NCBI RefSeq assembly: GCF_017565645.3
Contig: NZ_CP086136.1
Span: 1,998,001-2,062,000 of the forward strand
DNA length: 64,000 bases
Reading direction: 5' to 3'
Source of the DNA: Bradyrhizobium barranii subsp. barranii
GTDB taxonomy: Bacteria; Pseudomonadota; Alphaproteobacteria; Rhizobiales; Xanthobacteraceae
Every line of letters starts with the position of its first letter. Position 1 is the first letter of the stretch. The notes under the pieces were generated by a model that was not told where the DNA came from, did no database searches, and saw only the letters and a list, made by a program, of their open reading frames with translations. Below are positions 44,811-49,293 of the stretch, in pieces. Both the position numbers and the translations under genes were made by a program.

Positions 44811-45818
44811 TCAGGCGATCTTGCGGGCGAGGAAGTCGCGGATCAGCGGAACCATCTCGTCGAACCTGTCCTCGAGCGCGAAATGACCGGTGTTGATCAG
44901 GTGAAACTCCACTTGCGGCAGGTCGCGCTTGTAGGGATGGGCGCCGTCGGCCGGGAAGATGAAATCGTTCTTGCCCCAGACGATCAGCGTCGGCGGCTTG
45001 TGCTTGCGGAAGTAGGCTTGCACCGCGGGATACAGCGGCAGATTGGTCCGGTAATCGTAGAACAGGTCCATCTGGATATCGCTGTTGCCGGGCCGGTCGA
45101 GCAGCGCCTGATCTTGTACCCAATTGTCGGGTGAAATCCGACTCACGTCCGACATGCCGTCGGTGTACTGGAATTTCGTCGTTTCCAGCGTGACCAGCTT
45201 CATCAATGCCTGTCGGCTGGTATCGGACCCGTCGGCCCAGTATTGCTTGATCGGATTCCAGAACTCCTTCAGCCCTTCGTCATAGGCGTTGCCGTTCTGC
45301 ACGATCAGGCCGCTGACGCGCTCGGGATGCTTGAGCGCCAGCCGCCAGCCGACCGGGGCGCCGTAATCCATGACGTACATCGCATAGCGGGTGACACCGA
45401 GCTGGCCGAGCAGGCCGTCAACGAGTTCGCCGAAGCGATCGAAGGTGTATTTGAACGATGTGCGCGGTGGCATGTCGCTCTGGCTGTAGCCGGGGTAGTC
45501 GGGAGCGATCACGTGATAGCGGTCCGCCAGAGCTGGGATCAGGTTGCGAAACATGTGCGAGGAGGTCGGAAAGCCGTGGAGCAGTAGCACCACCGGTGCA
45601 TCCTTGGGCCCCGCTTCGCGGTAGAAGATCTTGATCCCGTCGACGGATTTGGTTCGATGGTAGACGACCGGATAAGAACCGGTGGCGCCGCGGCCGTCAC
45701 GCTGCGGTTTCGCCGATGCATCCGGCGAAGCGGTGGCAACGGCGATTCCGGACAATCCAAGGACCAGGCAACGACGATCGATACGGGTTTGTGGCGGCGT
45801 GACCTCTGCACTTTTCAT
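44811..45818 (-). CDS. exported alpha/beta hydrolase (epoxide hydrolase/dehalogenase-like)
   Basis: A 335-residue protein with a signal-like N-terminus containing [20 protein letters not shown] (possibly Tat). The alpha/beta fold shows [13 protein letters not shown] (oxyanion hole), the nucleophile elbow [12 protein letters not shown] with Asp rather than Ser, an acid in WGKNDFIFP and the catalytic His in NTGHFALED. An Asp nucleophile points to epoxide hydrolase or haloalkane dehalogenase chemistry. It lies between the metallo-hydrolase and DUF6130-like genes and may be controlled by the interrupted LysR gene. Confidence 0.85.
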
Positions 45819-45872: not shown

Positions 45873-46844
45873 TCAAACGCCCTGGTAGACCAGCCGGGTG
45901 AAGAAGCCGGGGTCGATCACGAACTGCCCCCATATCGCATCGAAGGCCGCGGTCGGTTTGGCGGCCACGGCTTCGTCCCGCGTTCGTCCCTGGCTCTTGA
46001 GACGGGCGACGTTGTCGCGGATCGTCACCAACATGTCGCGAAACGCCTGGAGTTCGGCTCTGTTGCCAACCGGCTTGCCGTGACCGGAGATCACGATCGT
46101 ATCCTGTCCGGTCGCCGCGAGATTGGCTTCGGAAGCCGCGATCATCCCGTTGATGCTGCCGCCGGTCGAGTAGTCGATGAACGGATAGATGCCGTTCCAG
46201 AAGGTATCGCCGACATGAACGACGTTGGCTTCTGCAAAGGTGACGGAGATGTCGCTGTCGGTATGCGCGGGCCCGTAATATTTCAGGCCGATCGAGGTTC
46301 CGTTGAGTCTGAGCTCATGGGTGCTGGAAAATACGTCGCTGGGGATGCCGCCTGGTCCCAGCGGAAGGAAATTGTAGTCCCAGTCCTCTACGCGCTGAAC
46401 TTCGAGGAGGTACTTTCGCGTGTTCTCCTGCGCGATGATCCTGGCGCCAGCGGAATGGAGCCATTCGTTGCCATCGGCGTGATCGAAATGCCAGTGGGTG
46501 TTGACGAGATGGGTGACGGGATCGGCGCCGAGATCGGCCATCGCTTTGGTGAGCTGGGGACGCGAGACGCGGATGCCGGCATCGACTAAAACCTTGCCGT
46601 CGGGACCGGTCAGGACCGCGACATTTCCGCCGGAGCCTTCGAGCACGGCTATGTTGCCTCGGAGTTTGTGCGTGGTGATCGGCGATGTCGCCGCACTGTC
46701 CTTGATCAGGCTGACAAGGCCTCGCGCTTCAGCGTAGGCCTGCCGCGGCGAAAGCCAACCGTTAGTAGCGGCAATCGTCGCGCCGCTCAGGCAGCAGAGA
46801 CAGAAATTGCGGCGCGACAGCAGGGCTCTGGTCTCTAACTCCAT
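45873..46844 (-). CDS. exported metallo-beta-lactamase-fold hydrolase
   Basis: A 323-residue protein from the Met at 46844, with a twin-arginine-type leader (SRRNFCLCCLSGATI). The zinc motif HWHFDHADGN (NTHWHFDHADG) is complete, with further ligands GPAHTDSD, HVGDTFWNG and ISGHGKP. This subgroup resembles quinoprotein-relay or alkylsulfatase-like MBL enzymes; the substrate is unknown. The frame extends to 46958, but the added residues overlap the promoter and palindrome. It is the first gene of a three-gene minus-strand run, divergent from a LysR gene. Confidence 0.87.
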   Translation of the reverse strand: MELETRALLSRRNFCLCCLSGATIAATNGWLSPRQAYAEARGLVSLIKDSAATSPITTHKLRGNIAVLEGSGGNVAVLTGPDGKVLVDAGIRVSRPQLTKAMADLGADPVTHLVNTHWHFDHADGNEWLHSAGARIIAQENTRKYLLEVQRVEDWDYNFLPLGPGGIPSDVFSSTHELRLNGTSIGLKYYGPAHTDSDISVTFAEANVVHVGDTFWNGIYPFIDYSTGGSINGMIAASEANLAATGQDTIVISGHGKPVGNRAELQAFRDMLVTIRDNVARLKSQGRTRDEAVAAKPTAAFDAIWGQFVIDPGFFTRLVYQGV

Positions 46845-46946
46845 AGCGTCCTCGATTGACGGCCGGGCGACGGCATTCAAAACGCACGGCGGCTTTGCGC
46901 ATATCCACCGCGTAGCCGATTGTCGCTGTGGGGAGCAGACGGTATG

Positions 46947-46967
46947 CTTGAGAAGCACCTTCTCAAG
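46947..46967. promoter_or_regulatory. perfect palindromic operator in front of the LysR gene and hydrolase operon
   Basis: CTTGAGAAG, a CAC spacer, then CTTCTCAAG: nine-base arms that are exact reverse complements. It lies 103 bases before the metallo-hydrolase ATG and 19 before the original LysR ATG. It is the obvious candidate site for the LysR protein. The strict T-N11-A spacing is not met, so another regulator is possible. Confidence 0.7.
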
Positions 46968-46989
46968 ATATGGAAAGCGTATCCGATGG

Positions 46990-46998
46990 ACCGGTTGG
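46990..46998. repeat. 9-bp target site duplication, left
   Basis: ACCGGTTGG directly before the left inverted repeat; it is identical to 48398-48406. Confidence 0.95.
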
Positions 46999-48397
46999 GA
47001 GCTATGGCTGATTTTGGGTGACGCGGCCTGATCAGGCGGCGTGGCTTTCAGTGTTCGGAATGACTTCGATTCCGTCGATGAACTTTACACCGGCGATGAC
47101 TTTCGGCAACTGGTTCGTGCTCTTCAATCGCCGCCAGGTCTTCGATGCGGCGTCGATGAGCTTGAACACCATCAGCTTCGCAGTTTGTTGCGACAGCGAT
47201 CCCTTGGTCCGCACCGTTCGGTGGCGCACCGTGGCGAAGACGCTCTCGATCGGGTTCGAGCTGCGTAGGTGGATCCAGTGCTCAGCAGGGAAGTCGAAGA
47301 AGGCGAGCAGCGCATGGCGATCCTTGATCAGGCACTCCACCGCACGTCCGTATTTGACGTGGTATTTCTCGACGAAGACGTCGATCGCGGTTTCAGCTTC
47401 GGCCCGGTGTGGGGCCAGATAGATGTTCCGCAGGTCGTTCTTCATGGGGCCCTGCACGGATTTGGCGACCTTGTCGAGTACGTTGCTCACTTTATGGCAC
47501 CAGCATCGTTGGTGCCGCGTGCCGGGAAAGGCCTCGTCCAGTGCCTTCCAGAAGCCGAGGGCGCCGTCGCCGATGGCGAGTTGCGGGGCAATCCGTAACC
47601 CGCGTTGCCGCAGGTCGATCAGGAGTTCGCGCCAGCTCTGCGCGCTCTCGCGCACGCCGACCTGGAAGCCGATCAGCTCCTTCTTGCCTTCCGGCGTGGT
47701 GCCAATCAGCACCAGCATGCATTCGCTGTGATCTTCCATGCGGGCCTGCAGGTACACGCCATCGGCCCAGATGTAGACATAGCGACGCGCCGACAGATCG
47801 CGTCTCGGCCAGCGTTCGTACTCGACCTGCCAATCGGCCTTCAGGCCGGCGATCACCGAAGGCGACAGGTTCGGCGCATCCTTGCCGAGCAGCGCCGAGA
47901 GCGCCTCCTGGAAGTCGCCGGTCGAGATGCCGCGCAAATAGAGGACCGGGATCAAGGCATCCAGGCTCTTCGTCCGCCGCGCCCATAGCGGCAGGATTGC
48001 CGAACTGAAGCGGAGGCGGTCGCCTGGCCCGCTCGCTCCGCGGTCGCGGACCTTGGGACGAGCGACCTCCACCGGACCGATGCCGGTCGCAATCTCGCGC
48101 ACCGGACCGTGCCCATGTCGGACCAGGCGCGCTCGACCGTCGGGCAGCGTCAGATTGGCCGTGCTGGCCAGAAACGCGCCAACCTCGATCTCGATCGCCC
48201 TGGCAAGCAGGTCCCGCGCGCCGGCACGAACGATATCGGTCAGTGGATCATCAACCGCGGACGGCTGACGGAAAGCAAGAACATTGGTAGTCTCGGTCAT
48301 GGCGTATCGCTCTCCTCGAGAGGTTCTGGCAGGCTCGTCACCCGCCTCGATACGCCGCCTTCCTCACACCGTCATCACCCAGATTCCGCCATAGCTC
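46999..48397. mobile_element. IS256 family insertion sequence
   Basis: A complete 1,399-bp element. Left end 46999-47021 (GAGCTATGGC...GGGTGA) and right end 48375-48397 are imperfect inverted repeats of about 23 bases with three mismatches. Nine-base duplications flank it. One transposase gene fills most of the length on the minus strand. This size, ends and duplication length fit IS256. Confidence 0.95.
47032..48300 (-). CDS. IS256 family transposase
   Basis: A 422-residue mutator-type (DDE) transposase. The acidic residues lie in YIWADGVYLQAR (first Asp), AIGDGALGFWKAL (second Asp) and LRSSNPIESVFATVRHRT (Glu), with the C/H-rich RHQRCWCHKVSNVLDK segment before the insertion domain, typical of the family. 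Length is complete with no frameshift, so the element may still be active. Read from the minus strand, its promoter region is close to the right end, beside the displaced LysR sequence. Confidence 0.96.
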   Translation of the reverse strand: MTETTNVLAFRQPSAVDDPLTDIVRAGARDLLARAIEIEVGAFLASTANLTLPDGRARLVRHGHGPVREIATGIGPVEVARPKVRDRGASGPGDRLRFSSAILPLWARRTKSLDALIPVLYLRGISTGDFQEALSALLGKDAPNLSPSVIAGLKADWQVEYERWPRRDLSARRYVYIWADGVYLQARMEDHSECMLVLIGTTPEGKKELIGFQVGVRESAQSWRELLIDLRQRGLRIAPQLAIGDGALGFWKALDEAFPGTRHQRCWCHKVSNVLDKVAKSVQGPMKNDLRNIYLAPHRAEAETAIDVFVEKYHVKYGRAVECLIKDRHALLAFFDFPAEHWIHLRSSNPIESVFATVRHRTVRTKGSLSQQTAKLMVFKLIDAASKTWRRLKSTNQLPKVIAGVKFIDGIEVIPNTESHAA

Positions 48398-48406
48398 ACC
48401 GGTTGG
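48398..48406. repeat. 9-bp target site duplication, right
   Basis: ACCGGTTGG directly after the right inverted repeat, matching 46990-46998. In the unbroken gene only one copy exists, as codons 2-4 of the LysR frame. Confidence 0.95.
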
Positions 48407-49293
48407 AGGCAATGTCGGTGATCGTCGCGGTCACTGAGACAGGAAGCTTTTCAGCCGCTTCGCGGCGCCTCAACACGCCGGTCGCGACAGTCAGCCGCAC
48501 GGTCGCCGAGCTGGAGGCGCGGTTGAAGGCCCAACTATTTCAGCGATCCTCGCGCCAGATGAAGCTGACCGATGTCGGACGATCCTACATCGAAGCCTGC
48601 AAGCGCATTATCGGGCAGGTAGACGACGCGGAGCGCGAGGTCTCCGGCGAGTACAGGATTCCGAAAGGAGATCTCGCGGTCACGTCGCCCTGGGGGCTCG
48701 GACACATGCACCTGTTGCCGATCGCGCTCGAATTCATGGATGCCTTTCCAGACATCGCGCTACGGCTCGTCCTGACCGACCGCATTGTCAACACGGCCGA
48801 GGAGAATATCGACATTTCGGTTCGCATCGGCAACCTCCCGGACAGCAACCTGATCGCGACCCGAGTCGGCTCGGTCCGGTTCGTGCTCTGTGCGAGTCCC
48901 GGTTATGTTGCCAAGCACGGCCAACCGAAGGTGCCTGCCGATCTGGCTGCTCATGACTGTATCAGTATCGACAGCCTCGCGGCTCAGCGGAACTGGAAGT
49001 TCGTCATCGACGGCCGCGAAGTAGCGGTGCCGATCCGGTCGAGATTGACTTTGAGCGACTCCGAGGCTGCGGTCGAAGCCGCGATCGCGGGTGCCGGCAT
49101 CACCCGAGTCATGTCGTACAAGATGGAAGCCGCACGGCGCGCCGGAAAGCTCGTTTTGATGCTGGAGCCATTCGAACAGGCGCCATGGCCGGTGCATATC
49201 GTCTACGCGGAGCGCAAACCCGAGCCACTCAAGCTCCGATCTTTTCTCGACTGGGCCACGCCGCGCCTTAAGGAGCGGCTTGCTTAGCCCGTG

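Follow-up and report, generated by a model that had tools for sequence, protein, structure and literature searches.

A high-copy insertion sequence of the IS256 family lies within codon 5 of a gene for a LysR-type regulator in Bradyrhizobium barranii subsp. barranii, a soil bacterium with legume-nodulating relatives, and separates the body of the gene from its start and from its probable control region. Our preferred reading, to which we assign a probability of about 0.9, is that this element transposed into the codon as part of a recent burst, duplicating 9 bp of its target and leaving a beheaded gene. The promoter and operator beyond the element would then drive just an 11-residue peptide, the full-length regulator would no longer be produced, and the divergent hydrolase genes would escape its control wholly or in part. 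The insertion as such is a real, ordinary IS insertion inside an IS burst, an event of a known kind with a textbook mechanism.

The insertion and the empty site in a sister subspecies

The features of the insertion in the window, that is, the whole stretch of 64,000 nucleotides analysed, are as follows.

46986 to 47021, plus strand: native LysR start, from which MDRLGAMADFG and then a stop inside the element are now read (translation)
46990 to 46998, plus strand: target duplication, left copy, ACCGGTTGG (read in the sequence, copy census)
46999 to 48397, minus strand: IS256-family insertion sequence, 1,399 bp (inverted repeats, profile match, copy census)
47032 to 48300, minus strand: transposase of 422 aa, Mutator/IS256 family, with a private Q165P substitution (PF00872, NF033543)
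48398 to 48406, plus strand: target duplication, right copy, ACCGGTTGG (read in the sequence, copy census)
48412 to 49287, plus strand: LysR-type regulator body of 291 aa beginning at Met 7, separated from its start and promoter-like site (HTH_1, LysR_substrate)

The native ATG of the LysR gene occupies positions 46986-46988, the codons for M, D, R and L are intact before the break, and codon 5 is interrupted after its first base. The element ends in inverted repeats of 23 nt that are 87% complementary, and the two 9-bp target copies on either side of it are identical. This agrees with an earlier note made from the letters of the DNA, which had described two 9-base copies flanking a complete 1,399-bp element and had placed an IS256 insertion near codon 4 or 5. 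The span given there, 46986 to 48411, contains the element but overshoots its end, as the element stops at 48397 and position 48411 just precedes the internal Met codon at 48412. An Rfam search of the window returned nothing at the gathering score.

The earlier note had also proposed that removal of the element and one target copy restores the usual LysR start, MDRLEAM. Such an uninterrupted site is found in Bradyrhizobium barranii subsp. apii 1S5, the one genome in our same-species comparison, where the LysR gene reads ATGGACCGGTTGGAGGCAATG at the corresponding position. Without the element and one duplication, the flanks in the window align to 1S5 with 98.5% identity over 4,007 positions, with a single gap that lies in the left flank, away from the junction. 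Among the ortholog loci fetched, 36 in number with 27 distinct upstream sequences, every start is likewise uninterrupted; they include several duplicates under different names and represent the best matches only. Searches across the genus covered 195 genomes taken from a larger set. All 36 loci have an in-frame start six codons ahead of the internal Met, ATG in 31 and GTG in 5, and the start residues read DRLEAM in 35 loci and DRIESM in one. Comparison with close strains, suggested in the earlier note as a check on its claim, thus finds the site empty in 1S5 and in the other loci, and the same element at the same site, which the note had named as evidence against its interpretation, is seen in none of them.

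The presence of dozens of near-identical copies of the element makes it conceivable that a repeat was misplaced between unrelated contigs during assembly. We consider such an artefact extremely improbable, because the two flanks form an uninterrupted locus in 1S5 once one copy of the 9-bp duplication is removed, because this copy bears a private base, and because the assembly comprises 4 contigs with 100% completeness.

Copy number, probable origin and age of the element

The transposase scores 292.5 bits against the IS256-family profile NF033543 (curated cut-off 150) and 195.7 bits against Pfam PF00872, Transposase_mut (cut-off 21). It had been called intact, a description that holds for its open frame but not for its residues, as a T-to-G change at 47807, private to this copy, results in Q165P. 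The substitution is seen in 0 of the 47 other gapless full-length copies in this genome, and among 29 aligned relatives the residue is Q in 25, R in 3 (one of these rows being just 26% identical), L in 1 and P in none. Since Q165P is private and the position is predominantly Q and never P, the activity of this transposase copy is uncertain.

The element end is matched 57 times in the genome, a count keyed to one end and therefore exclusive of fragments that lack it. Among the 57 sites fetched, 53 match the element along its full 1,399 positions at 99.7% identity or higher, one aligns over 1,398 positions, and three align only partially within the stretch fetched. Consensus sequence is found in 25 of the 48 gapless full copies, and 11 of the 48 carry one common two-base variant. 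Target duplications of the 53 full-length copies are exactly 9 bp long in 45 cases, 10 bp in 1, 8 bp in 2 and 7 bp in 1, and are absent from 4. Direct repeats of at least nine bases thus stand at the ends of 46 of the 53 copies, and they represent 46 different 9-mers, which places the duplication beyond chance. Inspection by eye of base counts across the 45 sites duplicated by exactly 9 bp showed no strong target preference.

Two other observations come from this census. The four full-length copies without target duplications (L009, L126, L029 and L129) could mark past rearrangements; a search for swapped duplications yielded no cross-matches among the fetched copies, and we claim no rearrangement. 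At another site (L131, G000:C3:4472-7900), two partial copies, covering element positions 1-622 and 814-1399, meet in opposite orientation.

Scoring 40 of 134 candidates in 1S5 gave 19 matches to the element, the best of which is 78% identical and covers positions 161-1324 only. The remaining scored matches in that genome comprise relatives at about 69% identity and short fragments that reach at most 90%; the element end occurs there once, with 2 mismatches. Copies at 99.9% identity are carried by plasmids of B. japonicum, B. diazoefficiens NK6 (plasmid pNK6b), B. elkanii and B. barranii. Overall, 75 of 72,556 plasmid records match the element, 35 of these at 99% or higher. With scoring limited to two candidates in each genome, full-length copies at 99% were seen beyond this species in at least 3 of the 195 genus genomes (G144, G194 and G040). 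We infer from these distributions that a plasmid probably brought the element in and that its spread followed the divergence from 1S5; alternatively, it may once have been present in 1S5 and since have been lost there.

The insertion at the LysR gene is most likely fairly recent and part of a burst. A recent event had been suggested from the sequence, and the empty site in 1S5, the near-identical copies and the absence of decay in the LysR body all point the same way. The body protein is 100% identical in 1S5, with 5 synonymous and 0 nonsynonymous differences between the genes; the neighbouring metallo-beta-lactamase-fold gene has 7 synonymous differences and 1 nonsynonymous, and the neighbouring ABC permease gene has 19 and 1. 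As these neighbours have just one nonsynonymous difference each, the absence of decay is weak evidence of age. By itself it would fit a recent insertion or a gene under selection, and we favour the former.

The severed putative control region and the probable fate of the regulator

The following features lie on the far side of the element from the LysR body.

44811 to 45818, minus strand: alpha/beta hydrolase, the next gene, probable target gene (PF00561)
45873 to 46844, minus strand: divergent metallo-beta-lactamase-fold hydrolase, probable target gene (PF00753)
46920 to 46948, plus strand: native LysR promoter-like site, TTGTCG (46920-46925), 17-nt spacer, TATGCT (46943-46948), probable promoter
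46947 to 46967, no strand: inverted repeat CTTGAGAAG-CAC-CTTCTCAAG, candidate operator over the end of the -10 element, conserved at its offset
46972 to 46977, plus strand: GGAAAG, likely ribosome binding site of the native start (similar bases in most alignment rows, uncounted)

The association with the hydrolases is widespread. In the 36 fetched loci an alpha/beta hydrolase is found near the LysR ortholog 28 times and a metallo-beta-lactamase-fold hydrolase 17 times. At least one of the two is present in 35 loci, and the 36th (L044) is a short-flank copy of a locus (L062) that has both. The order of the hydrolase genes and their distance from the LysR gene vary across genomes.

The 154-base intergenic stretch shows 0 differences from 1S5. 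The native promoter-like site within it is weak, scoring 8.5 on the scale of our script, equal to the best site in the opposite direction, and it falls below the threshold of a consensus promoter scan. The pattern TTG-N20-TA occurs at fixed spacing in all 27 distinct ortholog upstream sequences, a count made without a chance control. These sequences come from Bradyrhizobium, Reyranella, Roseiarcus and Rhodopila bins and one Xanthobacteraceae bin, and are related, hence not independent trials. At the same offset, the inverted repeat keeps six or more of its 8 pairs in 19 of the 27 and 3 to 5 pairs in the other 8. Mean pairing is 5.6, compared with 2.1 for control positions, of which 0.6% reach 6; the score used was the highest among three neighbouring centres, a choice with a slight bias toward the site. 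We interpret the promoter-like site and the repeat as the putative promoter and operator of an autoregulated LysR gene. Both remain beside the divergent hydrolase genes, beyond the element from the LysR body, in keeping with the earlier suggestion that the promoter had been left on the far side.

With the putative control region in that position, the native start would yield an 11-residue peptide. The most likely outcome is a recent loss or strong reduction of the local regulator of the divergent hydrolase genes.

The body of the regulator matches HTH_1 (PF00126) at 62.6 bits and LysR_substrate (PF03466) at 114.3 bits; among the 25 of 46 NCBIfam families listed, none reached its cut-off. The LysR frame is open back into the element, the previous in-frame stop being at 47986. 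Two possible start codons in this frame lie within the element (48109 and 48115) and three more at the junction (48403, 48412 and 48418). Given this open frame and five candidate starts, some altered protein may still arise. The gene might persist as an altered regulator. Its translation would begin at ATG 48412 or GTG 48418, or else at 48109 or 48115 with element sequence fused to it; its transcription would depend on some weak promoter inside or across the element and escape the native operator. A GGAGG motif placed 8 nt ahead of GTG 48418 and 2 nt ahead of ATG 48412 is consistent with this, as is the match of HTH_1 to the shortened frame from residue 2, corresponding to profile position 5. 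The unchanged protein sequence of the body would fit as well, but its lack of decay is equally expected after a recent insertion. Moreover, apart from the M/V start, the residues missing from the shortened protein are the same in 35 of the 36 ortholog loci, with a conservative variant in the remaining one, and form part of helix 1 in the DNA-binding domain. We regard persistence of an altered regulator as unlikely. Still less likely, by a small step, is a rewired regulator, in which a LysR protein without its first six residues or with an element-encoded head acts outside operator control and alters hydrolase expression.

Transcription of the body could alternatively start from a promoter at the end of the element, as relatives of IS256 have been reported to drive adjacent genes in this way. 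This general behaviour is the argument for such a promoter, and nothing in it is specific to this site. Among outward sigma-70-like patterns in the element, the best scores 7.5 and the ones that overlap the terminal repeat reach 7 and 6.5, all below the native site, so that none stands out as a source of transcripts for an altered regulator either. The consensus scan also found no outward site, although it missed the native one too. We consider an end promoter improbable, more so than a rewired regulator, and retain beheading of the gene as our preferred reading.

Comparison with known systems

The element resembles the IS256 family (NF033543) in its single large transposase gene, terminal inverted repeats, 9-bp duplication and length of about 1.4 kb, and we found no difference from the family. 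Its transposase scores above the family cut-off, and it has both the inverted repeats and the 9-bp target duplication. Members of the family duplicate 8-9 bp of target and transpose via a circular intermediate.

Its abundance recalls the IS-rich 'highly reiterated sequence' soybean bradyrhizobia, which include NK6 (Iida et al. 2015, as cited in passages of PMC8374602 and PMC10127595). The likeness consists of many copies of one IS, the association with plasmids and the near-identical element on the NK6 plasmid, and here it is drawn from the count of one element (57 end matches, 53 full copies). It is not complete, since the high-copy types named for such strains in the relevant part of PMC10127595 are IS630, IS3 and IS1630, with IS256 absent from that list, whereas the element described here is of the IS256 family. 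Parts of PMC8374602 and PMC10127595 report many IS in plasmid-bearing Bradyrhizobium strains, a section of PMC8692435 describes IS-mediated deletions and duplications in symbiosis islands, and a portion of PMC3927601 lists IS types for two strains. Among the papers listed by our literature searches, which were broader than this locus, none concerns this insertion; the present analysis contributes proof of the empty site in 1S5, a census of copies and a conserved putative control region.

The interrupted gene resembles other LysR-type regulators in its combination of HTH_1 and LysR_substrate domains, its divergent neighbour and the inverted repeat at a promoter-like site. Both domains are found on the 291-aa body, and the uninterrupted start is seen in 1S5. 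It differs from them in being split by the element. The locus is a clean case in which an IS burst has beheaded a regulator inside one species while a sister subspecies retains the uninterrupted allele, and the conserved promoter-like site and inverted repeat provide a ready handle on what the regulator controls.
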